A stretch of DNA of 64,000 nucleotides from Planctomycetota bacterium. GTDB lineage: Bacteria; Planctomycetota; Planctomycetia; Planctomycetales; Planctomycetaceae. Each line of letters begins with the position of its first letter. The stretch's first letter is position 1. The DNA lies in contig QQVO01000002.1 of NCBI GenBank assembly GCA_003388505.1, positions 62,001-126,000 on the forward strand, written 5' to 3'. Made by a program: the position numbers and the translations under genes. Below are positions 18,843 to 61,201 of the stretch, one piece after another. The notes under the pieces were generated by a model, which made no database searches, was not told the origin of the DNA, and saw only the letters and a list, made by a program, of their open reading frames with translations.

Positions 18843-18946
18843 TAGAGCGCTTTGCAAGTCAGTGTTGGCGATCTGTCTCGCGGATTCTCGCCCTCGACAG
18901 TCCAAATGCCGCTCGACGCGGACACATGGTAGAGCAATTTGCTCTA
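18843..18946 (-). repeat. 105 bp palindrome-ended repeat, copy 1 (minus orientation)
   Basis: Reverse-orientation copy of the element at 40996-41100 and 59239-59343. It runs from TTAGAGCGCTTTGCAA to the palindrome TAGAGCAATTTGCTCTA (18930-18946). An IS630 derivative begins immediately after the terminal TA. Confidence 0.85.
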
Positions 18947-19696
18947 GTGGTCTGTCACAGCTTGATTTTGGGGTACACGGAGTTGAGTTTGATGCGGGCG
19001 TCGTCGAGCTTCATTTGCCAGTCAACACCGCGCTGTGTGGAGTTGATGTCTTCGTACCAGGCCGTGGTTTCTTCACGCAACTGTTCCTCACTCCCGATGC
19101 GACGGCCGCTGACGCATTGAGCGGTCACACAGCTCAGTTCGTTCTCCGCAATGTTCAGCCAACTGCCGTGTTTGGGTGTGTAGTGGAATTCAAGGCGACT
19201 CCCGCGCGACGATACTCATAGTCAACTCGCTTCGGATGCCATCGCGTGGCCGCAATGATCTGGTTGCCGAACCCTTTCGGCGGTTCCCCCAATCGCATGG
19301 CGATGATCCTTGCTTCCTGTTCTCCGTCGAGAAGTTTCGGCACGGGCGGATTTGCACGTTTCTTGCCGTTGAGGGTCTGTTCAAACCCGCATTCCACCAG
19401 TCGCCTGCGGACGTTTTCCACAGTCTGCCTGCGGCAGTTGAAGGCGTCCGCGATTTTCTCGTCCGTCCACCCCTCATCAGATTTCAACAGGATGTTGGCG
19501 CGTTTCACTTTCTGGCTGGTTCCTTTGAGCTTTTTGACCACTTCCCGGCAGACAGCTCTTTCCTCATCGGACAACTCAACGACATACTTCTTGACACTCA
19601 TGGCGACTTCCTTGCCGATTGGGAAACACGAAACCGACGAAGAAGACCATAATTTCAAAGACACCCCAACCCCAAAATCCATCTGGACCAGACCAC
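18947..19696 (-). mobile_element. IS630-family insertion sequence, internally deleted
   Basis: The element is flanked by TA dinucleotides (18945-18946 and 19697-19698), the target duplication expected for the IS630/Tc1 group. Its ends match as inverted repeats: GTGGTCTG...GATTTTGGGG on the left and the same words read from the other strand on the right (CCCCAAAATCCA...CAGACCAC). At 750 bp it is shorter than a typical ~1.1 kb member. It lies exactly at the end of a 105 bp dispersed repeat. Confidence 0.8.
18955..19601 (-). pseudogene. IS630-family transposase, deleted and frameshifted
   Basis: The N-terminal helix-turn-helix part is intact: MSVKKYVVELSDEERAVCRE, then WTDEKIADAFNCRRQTVENV and ARIIAMRLGEPPKGFGN. 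After PKGFGN the sequence jumps to HPKRVDYEYRRAG (near 19270), and then, with a frame change near 19196, to EFHYTPKHGSWLNIAENELS and the C-terminal end DARIKLNSVYPKIKL at 18955. Two internal deletions have removed the segments that carry the first two catalytic Asp residues of the DDE triad. Only the region of the final acidic residue remains, so the enzyme cannot be active. The 3' part is only visible when the frame is shifted. Confidence 0.85.
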
Positions 19697-20002
19697 TAGA
19701 GACCTGACGCGCCGGAGACTCCCCTTGCATCATTTGCATTTCCCCCTCTGCAGAATTGTCAAACAGTGGGGAATTCTGCCCGTCAGGCAAGCGGCAGACT
19801 CTGCCGGAGTTTCCTAATCCGACCCGGCTCAACAGGTTATGCAGCCTGGAATCACCGCGCCGCACGTTTGGCACGGCGTGTGCCTTTCCCATCCCGTGAA
19901 TGGGGGCGAAAGGGCCTCACAGCCCCGCACGGACAACTCACACGGAAACGGATTCCCGAGTCAGCGGCAGTCACGTCGCGTCTATTTATGGAGAAGAGAA
20001 CC
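19697..20002. other. Leader region upstream of csrA
   Basis: Just over 300 bp lie between the IS remnant and the csrA start. No gene is seen. The frame of csrA is open upstream to 19766 but has no ribosome site or protein-like composition there, so this is most likely promoter and leader. Confidence 0.5.
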
Positions 20003-23303: not shown

Positions 23304-24138
23304 GTCACGAAACGTCGGCGAAGTGGAAACGGACGACCTGTCTCTCTGCTCAATCAATACCGCAGGGGGAACACGACTCGCTGGGCACTCCCAACACCTG
23401 AACTCAACACACCGACGCGCAGGAAATCGGGCAAGCAGAATCCCAAACCGGTTGAATCCGTTGCTGCGGTCTGGTGTGTCCCGACGCTCGGCAACTCCCG
23501 AAGACGTGCTGCTACCAGGCTTTCCGCAGTTCCTCGGAGAAGTAGCGCGCCCCACCTGTCAACTCTGCGTATCTCCGCGTCTTTGCGACTTTGCGTCGAA
23601 TACCCGAATGTATGAAGCGTCCCCCCCGGCGAGCCAATCGGCGAATCCTGCCGGATTGGAACGGATTGTGCATTTCTGCTGAACCGCGTCGCAACGACGC
23701 ACTCCCAGACCCATCACACGAGCAACGGAACGCAGAAAACCCGGCGAGACAGCAAGTCGCGTCGGTTTCCGGTGGCTCGTCTCCGTTTCAGCACTTGTAG
23801 GCATTTCAACCCGGCCTTGTAAATCCTGCAAGCCGGGCCCTTCGTAAGCGGCGTTCCGGTCGCCACCGGAGCAATTTGCTCCGGCACCGCGATGATGCGA
23901 GGCGCACCGGCACCCGCCGATTCCCCATCGACAATTCGGACCAGTCGAACGAGCGGCCTTCCCGCCGCCCGCGATCGCTGTCCGAACGACGCGTGAGGAG
24001 TCGTTTACGCTTTTTTTGGCATGGAGGCCAGCGATGTGGCGAAACTGCTTTCCGGCTCTCGGGATGGGGCCATCGCCGCTGCGTCTGTTCTCAGTCGCCT
24101 GCCCCTCCCCCCGCCCCTCTTTCAGCCGGAGTTGACCC
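23304..24138. other. 835 bp gene-free interval
   Basis: Divergent spacer between the YfhO-like and thioredoxin-protease genes. No convincing gene is seen: open frames through it lack ribosome sites and protein-like composition. It contains the words CTCCGCGTCTTTGCGACTTTG (split here by frame, near 23571-23591), a G/C-rich hairpin near 23812-23840 and the GAGCAATTTGCTC palindrome at 23866-23884. Confidence 0.5.
23866..23884. repeat. Palindrome CCGGAGCAA-T-TTGCTCCGG
   Basis: This 19 bp palindrome shares its core GAGCAATTTGCTC with the ends of the 105 bp repeats but has different flanks. It stands alone about 250 bp upstream of the thioredoxin-protease gene. Confidence 0.7.
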
Positions 24139-29456: not shown

Positions 29457-29878
29457 CGGTGTTGCTGCGCAGGTCAGCCGAAGAGAACGATTATTGTCGA
29501 CAACATCAATTCGCCCTGCCTGCTGACGATTGCCCGAGATGACATTCGTTTTGCGAGAGCGACTGGTCGCTCAACGTTTAGTCTTTCGCGTCCCCCGCCC
29601 TGGCACAAGGGACGCATCAATTACGCTCCCAGCACGAGGAATCACGATTCCCGCTGCACAGCGCCGCCCAAAGAGGTACTTGACCGGTTCCGCGCAACTG
29701 CTCTAAACTCCGGCAGGCTATAGCGATTTGTGAATCAGTTCTCGCGATCTGTCTCGCGGAATCTCGCACGCAATTGTCCGAAAACCGCTCGACGCGGACA
29801 CTTGGTAGAGCAGTTTGCTCGAAACGGTTCTTGCGATAGGCCGCGCCCAGCCGGGCTTGCAAATAGAGGACGCGATTG
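29457..29878. other. Divergent spacer with a diverged 105 bp repeat
   Basis: 422 bp between the methyltransferase and the phosphoesterase. No gene is seen; the only recognised element is the repeat at 29719-29822. Confidence 0.5.
29719..29822 (-). repeat. 105 bp palindrome-ended repeat, diverged copy 2
   Basis: Same layout as the copy at 18843-18946: TAGCGATTTGTGAATCAG, then CGATCTGTCTCGCGGA, then CCGCTCGACGCGGACAC, and the end TAGAGCAGTTTGCTCGA. The palindrome is partly decayed, so this copy is older. Confidence 0.7.
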
Positions 29879-39026: not shown

Positions 39027-39143
39027 TCGCACCTCAACGACTCAACGAGACTCGTTGACAGGATTTACGGCGAGAATAGAATTGCACCGGAACGTCGCGC
39101 GGCGTTTCAAGAATACCGACCGTGTTCGCCGAATCACGTTGAG

Positions 39144-39163
39144 CCGCGACCCGCAGGGGAGCG
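39144..39163 (+). repeat. 20 bp word, copy 1
   Basis: Exact copy of CCGCGACCCGCAGGGGAGCG, also found at 41101-41120 and 42470-42489 in the same orientation. It lies in the mcsA upstream spacer; a small palindrome (CAACGAG-A-CTCGTTG, 39043-39057) lies just before it. Confidence 0.85.
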
Positions 39164-39278
39164 CTCTCACCCGAGCTTCGATCGCGAATCCAACCACCAG
39201 GCAATAGCGCCAATACAGACGACTGCGCGTGGCGACGAAGTCAGCAAAGGTCCAGACTGCAATCTGCACGGAGATGCA

Positions 39279-40995: not shown

Positions 40996-41100
40996 TAGAG
41001 CAAATTGCTCTACCATGTGTCCGCGTCGAGCGGTGTTTGGACTGTCGAGGACGAGAATCCGCGAGACAGATCGCCAACACTGATTTGCAAAGCGCTCTAG
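40996..41100 (+). repeat. 105 bp palindrome-ended repeat, copy 3
   Basis: Plus-oriented copy. It begins with the palindrome TAGAGCAAATTGCTCTA and ends TTTGCAAAGCGCTCTAG. It lies 64 bp upstream of the TPR gene and directly abuts the 20 bp word at 41101. Confidence 0.85.
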
Positions 41101-41120
41101 CCGCGACCCGCAGGGGAGCG
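41101..41120 (+). repeat. 20 bp word, copy 2
   Basis: Exact copy of CCGCGACCCGCAGGGGAGCG, fused directly to the end of a 105 bp repeat. Confidence 0.85.
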
Positions 41121-41163
41121 TTCCACCGCAGGTCGCTGAGCACAACGTGGCCGTACCATCTCA

Positions 41164-42420: not shown

Positions 42421-42469
42421 CGACAATCGGGAGACCGGCAGCCGACTCGGTTTGACCGGCCCCGTTCCG

Positions 42470-42489
42470 CCGCGACCCGCAGGGGAGCG
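42470..42489 (+). repeat. 20 bp word, copy 3
   Basis: Exact copy of CCGCGACCCGCAGGGGAGCG, 80 bp upstream of the sppA start. Confidence 0.85.
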
Positions 42490-42569
42490 ATCCACATGAA
42501 CGCCCCCTAATGAACCGGTTTTCCATCGCGTCGCGCCGCGACCGATCAATCGAAAAAGGAGTCCGCTCG

Positions 42570-45936: not shown

Positions 45937-46794
45937 TCCCGCTCCCTCTCAGCAGTCGATTCATACCAGCGCCGCCGCAACGTAAGCTCACACCCCGCCC
46001 CGGTCAAGCAGCCGTCGGCACACCCTCGGCACACGCCCCGACCGCCCCGCGCACCCACCCCCGGCACTGCGCCAAGACCACCCCCATCGGCCATCAGCCA
46101 ACAGCAATGAGCCATGAGCAATCAACACGCGCACCACGAAACCCGTCCCCCCAACCCCCCAAAGTTCACTTCCTCCTCAACCGAAACCGAGACACCCGCA
46201 GCGCGCTTCCGGGTAGCGCATTTTCCCGTAGAGTTAAAGAGTTGCAATATTTCGCGGGGAAAAACAGCCGCCAACTCTTTAACCGCCCGCAACTTTTTGC
46301 AACGTTCACCGGAGCGATCCTCGCCACCGAGTTCCCCCCAGCGCAACCGATGCCCGCGCCCGCTCGATCGCCTTGGCGCATTCCACGCATTGCAATTGGT
46401 GACGCAAAGCCGCAAAGAGGCGAAGACCCGCAAAGGTCAGACGCGGAGCGCGGCGCGGCACATCGTAACTGGGGGACGGCTGACCAGAGCAATTTGCTTC
46501 ACTCTCTGCGGCCCTCTGCGTTTTTGCGCCTCAGCGTCGAAGAGAGATTGCTGCAAAGTGCGTCGTGCACCCCGATCGCCGGAGCGTCCCGATTCCCGCT
46601 TCAACCGGAAGTGCACGCAAGATATAGTGCCCTGCCAGGGCTTTGTTTTCGGGTTGGCCGGACCACAAATCCGCCCGAAACCCTGCGGGATTCGTGCTTT
46701 CGAACGAACCGCTCAACCTGAAGATTGTGGTTAGGCGAACCAAGAGGCTGCGGCGTCCACGGACGTCACTCCGCATCCGGGAACCCGAGCAGAC
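45937..46794. other. 858 bp divergent spacer, speY/speA
   Basis: No convincing gene is seen; overlapping open frames near 46107-46734 have unlike compositions and no ribosome sites. It contains low-complexity words (CAGCAATGAGCCATGAGCAA near 46100, GACGCAAAGCCGCAAAGAGG near 46401), a 12 bp inverted repeat at 46233-46283 and half of the GAGCAATTTGCT palindrome near 46487. Promoters for both genes must lie here. Confidence 0.5.
46233..46283. repeat. 12 bp perfect inverted repeat in speA leader
   Basis: The arms GTTAAAGAGTTG (46233-46244) and CAACTCTTTAAC (46272-46283) enclose a 27-base loop. The local sequence is AT-richer than the surroundings. It lies about 510 bp upstream of speA. It might be an operator, a riboregulatory stem or a repeat end; no T-run follows. 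Confidence 0.65.
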
Positions 46795-59238: not shown

Positions 59239-59343
59239 TAGAGCAAATTGCTCTACCATTTGTCCGCGTCGAGCAGTGTCTCGACTGTCGAGGACGAGAA
59301 TCCGCGAGACAGATCGCCAACACTGTTTTGCAAAGCGCTAGAG
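59239..59343 (+). repeat. 105 bp palindrome-ended repeat, copy 4
   Basis: Plus-oriented copy very similar to 40996-41100. It starts TAGAGCAAATTGCTCTA and ends TTTTGCAAAGCGCTAGAG. The remaining spacer to 59719 contains no gene, only tandem-like phrases such as GGACTCTTGACTCTCAGCCC (59623-59642), similar to a phrase near 25968-25990. Confidence 0.85.
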
Positions 59344-59719: not shown

Positions 59720-61201
59720 CTACCCTCCGATACAGAACAGCCCGGTTCGGGTGCGGATGAACAGGCGCCCGTCGGAGACGGCCGGAGTTCCGAGAATGTC
59801 GTCGCCCATGTCATTGACCGCGAGCACGTCCAGTTCCGGCCCTTCACGCAGCACAACCACCATGCCGTTCTCCGCGCCGATATAAACCTTGCCGTCTCCG
59901 TAGATCGGCGACGCGAAGTATTCGCTCGCGTTGTCAATCCGCGCCGGTCCGAATACGGGCGTCCCGTCCTCGGTGTCGAAACAGGTGGCGATTCCGCCCC
60001 CCTTGATCAGCAGCATGCGGCCGTTGACGACGAGCGGCGAGACGATGTGGTCGGTGTGTTTCGTCCGGTGCTTCCAGAGCAGGTGCGTGTCGGTCACGTC
60101 GCCCGTGCCCCCGCCGCGCACCGCCAGAATGTACTCGTCGGCCGGTTCTTCGTCGTCGAAACTGGCGCCGGCATGATTTCCTTCGGGAAGGAAGGCGACG
60201 TCGAGTTCCTTCCCTTCCAACTGGCCGTCGTTGTTCAGGTCGCCGCGATCAAACGTCCGCTCATAGAAGGCTTCCGGAACGGGCGCGCTCCCGACAAAGG
60301 CCTGAATCTCCTCTTTGGTCACCTTGCCGTCGCTGTTGCCGGTCTCCCACTGGTCGATCGACGCCAGCCACTGATTGGCAATGCCCCCGCTTTGCAACGA
60401 GACGTAGATCACGCCGTCTCTCGCCACCGGCGTGGTCTTGATGTTGCGGAGCAGCGTGCGGGCGTGCCATTTCCGCTCACCGGTCTCGATGTTGTATCCG
60501 ATCAGCAGGCCGGTCCCTGCGACCACCAGTTCCGGACCGTCCTCCGTTTCGTTGATCACCGGGTGCGAGTAATTGACGCACATGTCCCCCCGGTCGTCGC
60601 GCCAACGGAGTTCTCCCGTCCGCTTGTCGAAGGCGTACATCGCCGGCGCAAGATCGTCGTCCTGACAGAAGATCAACAGATCCTCGTGCAGGATCGGAGA
60701 CATTCCCGCGCCCCATTTGAAGATGAAGAACGGCGTCGGCAACTCGTACTGCCACACGTCCTCTCCGGTTTCGGCGTCGACGCACATCATGCCGAGCGAA
60801 CTGAAATAGAAGTAGACCCGTTCGTCGTCTGCCGCCGGGGTCGTCGCCGCGTGGCTGTTGGTTTTGTGAATCTCCGGCAATGGGCCGGTTTCCCAGGTCC
60901 GCTCCCAGAGTCGCTCGCCGGTCTCGGCGTCGAACCCGTACAGCGCCACGGTCTCCTCATCGACCATGGCCGAGGTGAATACGCGGTTCGCTGCGACGAT
61001 GGGACTTCCAATTCCGTCCGCCAGTTCGACCGACCACTGCACGCCTTCCGTCGACGAAAACTCGACAGGCAGTTTCGCGTCGGACGCCGCGATGCCGGTG
61101 CAGTTCGGTCCGCGAAACTGAGGCCAGTCGTTCGCCGCAAGGGAGCCCGAAAGGAGAACAGCCGACGCGACAATTACTGCAGAACAATGGGGGGTCAGCA
61201 T
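59720..61201 (-). CDS. Secreted PQQ-type beta-propeller with EF-hand-like loops
   Basis: 493 residues. A signal peptide (SAVIVASAVLLSGSLA) is followed by NDWPQFRGPNCTGIA, the usual beginning of planctomycete PQQ-like propeller proteins. Blades with the A-x-D-x-x-T-G-x-x-x-W pattern follow (FDAETGERLWERTW, VDAETGEDVWQYEL, FDKRTGELRWRDD). At about residues 287-345 two loops resembling EF-hands interrupt the propeller: GNSDGKVTKEEIQAF and RGDLNNDGQLEGKELD. GAGGAG lies six bases before the ATG at 61201. Enzymatic PQQ residues cannot be confirmed, so it may be structural or a Ca-bound enzyme. Confidence 0.85.
   Translation of the reverse strand: MLTPHCSAVIVASAVLLSGSLAANDWPQFRGPNCTGIAASDAKLPVEFSSTEGVQWSVELADGIGSPIVAANRVFTSAMVDEETVALYGFDAETGERLWERTWETGPLPEIHKTNSHAATTPAADDERVYFYFSSLGMMCVDAETGEDVWQYELPTPFFIFKWGAGMSPILHEDLLIFCQDDDLAPAMYAFDKRTGELRWRDDRGDMCVNYSHPVINETEDGPELVVAGTGLLIGYNIETGERKWHARTLLRNIKTTPVARDGVIYVSLQSGGIANQWLASIDQWETGNSDGKVTKEEIQAFVGSAPVPEAFYERTFDRGDLNNDGQLEGKELDVAFLPEGNHAGASFDDEEPADEYILAVRGGGTGDVTDTHLLWKHRTKHTDHIVSPLVVNGRMLLIKGGGIATCFDTEDGTPVFGPARIDNASEYFASPIYGDGKVYIGAENGMVVVLREGPELDVLAVNDMGDDILGTPAVSDGRLFIRTRTGLFCIGG

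Follow-up and report, generated by a model that had tools for sequence, protein, structure and literature searches.

A 105-bp intergenic repeat of Planctomycetaceae, probably a non-autonomous transposon of IS630 type

The window analysed here, 64,000 nucleotides of a planctomycete contig, contains several look-alike segments of about 105 bp, and the segment starting at 40996 raises the question of whether they are mobile elements or sites that the host keeps for its own use. The initial annotation had claimed four copies and had proposed a MITE, a REP-like element or a dispersed operator. All four copies were recovered at the places given there within one base, two on the plus and two on the minus strand, and each was 104 bp long when counted from TA to TA inclusive. 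These are the reported copy at 40996-41099 (+) and the copies at 59239-59342 (+), 18843-18946 (-) and 29719-29822 (-). The copies at 18.8, 41.0 and 59.2 kb were 91-95% alike, and the more diverged copy at 29.7 kb showed a likeness of 77-83%. The reported copy starts with a 5' end hairpin or palindrome, TAGAGCAAATTGCTCTA, with a 7-bp stem (40996-41012, +). It is followed by a central conserved stem, of which the 5' arm TGTCCGCG occupies 41018-41025 (+; element positions 23-30) and the 3' arm CGCGAGACA, with one bulged A, occupies 41060-41068 (+; element positions 65-73). The right end of the element lies at 41076-41099 (+) and its reverse complement, TAGAGCGCTTTGCAAATCAGTGTT, is like the terminal repeat found in an IS of the IS630 family on contig 73 of the same genome.

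Chance palindromes were ruled out as the origin of the copies: the pattern TAGAGCAAWTTGCTCTA, with up to 3 mismatches, matched the window five times (the four copies and 46485-46501) and had no match in 100 shuffles. The palindrome core had also been said to stand alone at 23866-23884 and as a half at 46486-46498. Both strings are present, the second as 46485-46501, and neither was found by the element profiles. The first is a perfect 19-bp palindrome, CCGGAGCAATTTGCTCCGG, without the remainder of the element, and is perhaps a terminator.

The genome to which the window belongs (G000; 6.78 Mb in 78 contigs) contains far more copies than the window. A search with the element gave at least 40 matches at E ≤ 1e-3 when 40 of 214 first-look candidates were scored, and the reported copy was 96-100% identical to 39 other copies among the matches listed. 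A 20-base pattern of the left end occurred 109 times with at most 1 mismatch, and its reversed control did not occur, so the proposal withstood the objection that there might be fewer than a handful of copies. A profile search of five stretches, the window included, found 31 copies in 864 kb and none in the reversed sequence. If these stretches are typical, the genome would hold ∼240 copies, an extrapolation from a non-random sample consisting of contigs with known copies and the window. As 18 of the 31 copies were at least 94% identical to the consensus, many of the copies in G000 appear to be young. With 104-105 bp the element is too short for a transposase gene, and at 31 copies in 864 kb it is repeated, as expected of a MITE by size.

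The ends of the element read TAGAGC...GCTCTA. Among 54 full copies, the base before TAGAGC was T in 27, C in 20, G in 7 and A in none, and the base after the terminal TA was A in 35, G in 15, C in 4 and T in none. In G004, a genome from another genus of the same family, a pyrimidine preceded 30 and a purine followed 33 of 36 full copies. These flank counts take the element to be 104 bp long, and a few of the copies counted differ from this length by one base. The target site is Y-TA-R. The reported copy interrupts the repeat GTTTAGCCGCGACCCGC, and the filled site reads GTT-TA[element]TA-GCC. The TA duplicate together with the separate host repeat GCCGCGACCCGCAGGGGAGCG, the insertion target, lies at 41098-41121 (+). 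Elsewhere the commonest form of this host repeat is GTTTAGCCGCGACC, and 6 of the 16 other listed copies read exactly GTTTAGCC. Since the host repeat is short on its left, what this site establishes is chiefly the right side and the TA. A second copy, at G000:C1:167021-167124, stands inside another repeat, which is 270 bp or more in length and occurs many times in the same genome. Of 13 matching rows for this repeat, the best 11 were aligned as empty copies (the two left out come from one place), and the filled site minus the element plus one TA equalled the empty site within one base. The target duplication that the initial annotation had advised looking for was thus seen for two copies, the reported one included, as a TA that is doubled relative to the related empty site, with the short left repeat in one case and the one-base difference in the other as caveats.

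A transposase with matching ends was searched for in G000, and the best IS630 match was found on contig 73 (NF033545, 190.9 bits with a curated cut-off of 100; DDE_3, 3e-27). This IS is 1,084 bp long and has the terminal repeats TAGAGCGCTCTGCAYAACA, given as TAGAGCGCTCTGCACAACAGCG / TAGAGCGCTCTGCATAACA. The transposase gene has an apparent frame break near its end and the IS may therefore be inactive. G000 shows this one copy and one partial relative on contig 9 (71% identity, end TAGAGCGCTTCGCAGAACAGCGTTTGC). Of the 20 positions past TAGAGC, the right end of the element shared 15, 13 and 15 with the three IS ends, whereas the left end shared only 9, 10 and 8 with them. A control set of 129 TAGAGC sites outside element copies gave means of 5.1-5.9 of 20 against the IS ends; 4 or 5 of these sites scored 12 or more against an IS end (best 16), and at least two of the high-scoring ones seem to be termini of a different short element. 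Compared with each other, the left and right ends of the 105-bp element agree at only 8 of 20 positions past TAGAGC.

The high copy number, the TA duplication at two empty sites and the right end held in common with an IS630-family element together make it very probable that the element belongs to the non-autonomous transposons (MITEs) of IS630 (Tc1/mariner) type. An IS630-family transposase would act in trans on the ends of the element and would join it to a new TA, and intragenic insertions would be lost by selection, so that intergenic copies remain.

Several further units were observed. A 199-bp unit at G000:C9:28160-28358 has IS630-like ends, TAGAGCGCTTTGCAG.. and TAGAGCGATTTGCAG.., and is perhaps another MITE of this IS with more symmetry between its ends. 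The window has a similar end, TAGAGCGCTCTGCAGTTCGG, at 59722 (-), at a distance of ∼380 bp from the copy at 59.2 kb. At L052:1220-1317 lies an element copy without the outermost bases of its left end; ∼50 bp separate it from the left end of the contig 73 IS. The window also holds a different IS630-like element at 18945-19698 (-), with the ends TAGTGGTCTG...CAGACCACTA and family matches below the curated cut-off; it is not a member of the element family and was inserted at a CTAG formed at the end of the 18.8-kb copy.

The search of related planctomycetes that had been suggested showed that the element extends well beyond its own genome. In G004, a single contig whose sampled part has ∼50% G+C, a diverged version is present that was first detected as a 28-base match. 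An iterated profile search found 92 copies or fragments in 400 kb (none in the reversed control), and extrapolation gives a total of ∼1,460 copies or fragments, an estimated density that makes the element a noticeable share of the intergenic DNA. The G004 copies split into subfamilies, each with different 5' hairpins, and some stand in head-to-tail arrays with a terminal dinucleotide in common. One such tandem array, at G004:C1:1016912-1017325, consists of four copies; at L071:1918-2554 a 270-bp unit is present three times with one element copy in each. A covariance model built from 51 G004 copies was positive, under strict filters, in 21 of 150 genomes and 10 of 58 genera, all of the same family, and a scan of the phylum with strict filters was positive in 7 of 343 genomes, again all within this family. 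An exact-pattern scan had been positive in 2 of 397 class genomes only. A restriction of the family to two genomes was rejected in view of the letters of the 5' hairpin, which vary among genera, and of the ten genera reached by the covariance model. Full-length relatives occur in 10 genera, and the 5' hairpin and the central stem are kept in 50 copies from 8 genera while their letters change. The core pattern was also matched by L226 (JAGRHK010000156.1), a contig labelled Candidatus Competibacteraceae, which could be mis-binned planctomycete DNA or the result of a transfer.

The distribution of possible mobilisers was analysed as well. At E ≤ 1e-10, relatives of the contig 73 transposase were present in 61 of the 198 genomes searched in the class. 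Across the class, 22 IS loci were searched for terminal repeats starting with TA only; 14 had a terminal repeat and 10 of the 14 (L052 included) had at least one end starting with TAGAGC. An IS630 transposase scored above the cut-off in 5 of the 16 other positive genomes and below it in 11, G004 among them; G294, G020 and G266 gave sub-cut-off IS630 matches only. In G004, no IS630 transposase above the cut-off was found, and none by DNA search or, at E ≤ 1e-10, by protein search. The two weak IS630 matches of this genome (24.5 bits) were rejected as partners, as they are identical stretches that look IS3-type by their letters alone. Matching IS630 elements in the other positive genomes were likewise rejected: in the 12 of 28 fetched loci that were examined, from 7 genomes, 6 had a candidate end pair and G062 alone had TAGAGC at both ends. 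A search of the wider contig collection for transposase relatives matched 37 stretches, of which none was confirmed.

The folded core was investigated in an alignment of 50 copies from 8 genera, taken mainly from the best-scoring matches. In the central stem 82.9% of the cells were paired (77.9% in shuffles), 58 cells were changed on both sides (25.1 in shuffles) and the covariation score was 0.177 (0.085 in shuffles); for each measure 0 of 500 shuffles reached as high, and versions of the stem slid along the alignment were lower. Copies within one genus are related, so the shuffle controls overstate the significance of these values. There was no excess in the number of pairs in which both partners had changed (6 against 5.0 in shuffles; 134 of 500 as high) or in further pair types (15 against 15.5; 441 of 500 as high). 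Pair 25:71 was C-G in 19 copies, U-A in 19 and G-C in 12, being of a single type in each of 7 of the 8 genera and of two types in the genus of G004. Pair 29:66 was U-A in 16, C-G in 17, C-A in 16 and U-C in 1. Over the whole stem, 18 C-A cells stood against 2 G-U cells. Since C-A corresponds to G-U on the opposite strand, this imbalance suggests that the minus strand is the one that folds. RNAalifold predicted six central pairs from the 50-copy alignment and missed the 5' hairpin, because the hairpin shifts register. When scored copy by copy, this hairpin had 5 bp or more in 45 of the 50 copies, with a mean of 6.2 against 3.2 for shuffled letters, and its letters varied (UAGAGCA, AAAGCGU and CAGCGU stems). 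Over the 6 outermost positions (TAGAGC/GCTCTA), 86.3% of the end-to-end cells pair; no covariation was found in this end-to-end pairing.

Within G004 alone, a consensus fold was not predicted, and the central stem of 51 copies was paired in 83.5% of cells against 82.5% in shuffles (49 of 500 as high), with no excess of covariation; the structural claim is thus drawn from the multi-genus alignment only. Single copies fold somewhat better than shuffles, and equally so on both strands (mean z -1.52 each). No Rfam family reached its gathering score in the window, and five element loci searched at E ≤ 1 gave only mir-2796, below gathering score and ∼1.3 kb from the element.

A stronger reading of these data holds that the minus-strand fold is needed for spread, so that the element would be more than a passive IS630 derivative and its amplification would include an RNA or single-stranded step. 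The pair 25:71, canonical in 50 of 50 copies through three pair types, speaks for it, as do pair 29:66, which pairs in 49 of 50 copies on the minus strand only, and the near-constant length of the element across the 8 aligned genera. However, most of the signal comes from one pair, neither a covariation excess nor a consensus fold was obtained within G004, folding energy has no strand preference (a further folding comparison gave a mixed picture), and known bacterial MITEs are, in the accessible text of PMC2229807, generally described as having a stable transcript structure. We consider this reading unlikely. Similarly doubtful is its evolutionary extension, in which a MITE lineage would have outlived its transposases as a 105-bp unit passed through ten genera, with selection on its fold on the minus strand (a 3' hairpin and the central stem) because it would spread through an RNA or single-stranded intermediate, instead of being a deletion derivative formed anew from each local IS. 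In the preferred reading as an IS630-type MITE, the fold may serve the element's own amplification or its harmlessness in transcripts, and not the regulation of particular genes, since the copies show no significant preference for one orientation to their neighbouring genes. Having persisted in several genera while undergoing compensatory changes, the element supplies naturally occurring data on the question of whether folding is necessary for the spread of small mobile repeats.

The hairpins could also belong to a REP- or REPIN-like element, with a Y1 (RAYT) transposase that recognises them and moves the element in single-stranded form, as the REP-like half of the original proposal would have it. 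The frequency of the 5' hairpin and the covarying stem would suit such an element, and G000 has 10 Y1_Tnp matches. None of these 10 Y1 loci, however, had a copy in the fetched flanks of ∼1.5 kb, whereas two IS630 sites have one. Copies near 2 of 5 Y1 loci in G004 are about as many as estimated from copy density, and both the TA duplicated at the empty sites, that of the window included, and the IS630-like right end are at odds with a Y1 mechanism, which we regard as very improbable.

The genes around the copies were predicted with a custom hexamer predictor, and a copy was called intergenic if it overlapped a gene by less than 60 bp. All 119 placed copies were intergenic (31 of 31 in G000, 88 of 88 in G004), where ∼82% of the DNA is predicted to be coding. 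Orientation with respect to flanking genes showed no significant bias: (+,+) and (-,-) placements numbered 14 and 7 in G000 (p 0.19) and 28 and 23 in G004 (p 0.58). For gaps of at least 100 bp in G004, with gap lengths that include the copies, convergent gaps held 26 of 87 copies on ∼11% of the gap length and divergent gaps 10 of 87 on 31%. The corresponding values in G000 were 4 of 31 in convergent gaps (12% of length) and 6 of 31 in divergent gaps (34%, p 0.09). The gap pattern of G004 fits a loss of copies from promoters better than a regulatory role, and in G000 it is at most a trend. The initial annotation had placed three copies just upstream of genes, and this held in part. A calcineurin-like phosphoesterase starts ∼57 bp past the 29.7-kb copy, and a nucleotidyltransferase (PF00483; 58318-59220, -) starts ∼19 bp from the 59.2-kb copy and would be the gene named as galU; the TPR protein was not confirmed, as no Pfam match at E ≤ 1e-3 was obtained for the ORF downstream of the 41.0-kb copy (from 41164).

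A cis-acting RNA or operator that is dispersed but not mobile and is retained by the host (a regulator, terminator or mRNA-stability element) would account for the exclusively intergenic placement, the covarying central stem and the surplus in convergent gaps of G004, but it is highly unlikely given the two interrupted repeats with empty copies, the existence of decayed copies, the lack of a significant orientation bias or of any enrichment in divergent gaps, and the lack of an Rfam match at the element.

By their published descriptions, the closest known systems appear to be the RUP, ERIC and Correia elements; in what follows these are compared as far as the accessible text of the cited sources describes them. 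RUP is ∼107 bp long and intergenic, occurs in 108-110 copies and has IS630-Spn1-like ends and TA targets (PMC3049150; PMC2229807). By this description it resembles our element in size, intergenic placement and TA target, and shares with the right end of our element the likeness to an IS630-family element; RUP, however, belongs to the pneumococcus and thus to another phylum, while the planctomycete element is present in 10 genera and has only one clearly IS-like end. ERIC is interspersed and intergenic, has TA termini and is found in two bacterial families with 30 to 711 copies per genome (PMC2229807; PMC10969869). Going by this description, both are intergenic, have TA termini and are spread over genera, but the hosts of ERIC are Enterobacteriaceae/Vibrionaceae and those of our element are planctomycetes. 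Correia/NEMIS elements are MITEs with TA at their termini and forms of ∼107 and ∼155 bp, for which filled and empty sites have been aligned (PMC2229807). Both they and our element are MITE-like with TA termini, and the ∼107-bp form is close in size; the Neisseria elements are described with a 24-bp terminal repeat, whereas the ends of our element agree weakly and their pairing does not covary.

Compensatory changes have been described for REPINs (PMC3116915), and REP sequences carry the tags GTAG or CGTC (PMC3733652) in a layout of two inverted REP hairpins (PMC3116915), in the accessible parts of these sources. REPINs, or GTAG repeats with RAYT, are described as high-copy hairpin elements, as is the present one, but the latter has a TA duplication, an IS630-like right end and no link to Y1 genes in G000. 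Two inverted hairpins with GTAG or CGTC tags were not found in the element; it has one end hairpin, and the adjoining bases vary by genus. A 2007 review states, in its accessible text, that such elements except CIR form a stem from their two ends (PMC2229807). In contrast to the elements as described there, the end pairing of the planctomycete element does not covary and its central stem does, and compared with the descriptions of RUP and ERIC its ends are asymmetric and an internal stem is conserved. The element lineage is unusually widespread and structured, and we regard it as the planctomycete counterpart of RUP and ERIC. No earlier description of the family was found in the accessible text of the open-licence literature, which is weak evidence.

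Other repeats were noted as well. A separate repeat, (GTTT)AGCCGCGACCCGCAGGGGAGCGCTC, lies in the window at 41098-41121, 39116-39166 and 42442-42492, with 17 copies at up to 2 mismatches in 864 kb of G000. Two ∼90-bp repeat pairs, 11529-11619/26374-26464 and 14864-14950/25874-25960, are 92-93% alike, and no resemblance to the element was reported for them. In G004, the copy at G004:C1:3468307-3468490 and four others carry, as judged by eye, an insert of ∼80 bp with the ends TAGAAC...GTTCTA at a CTAG inside the element, which is either a second MITE or the mark of a composite subfamily.
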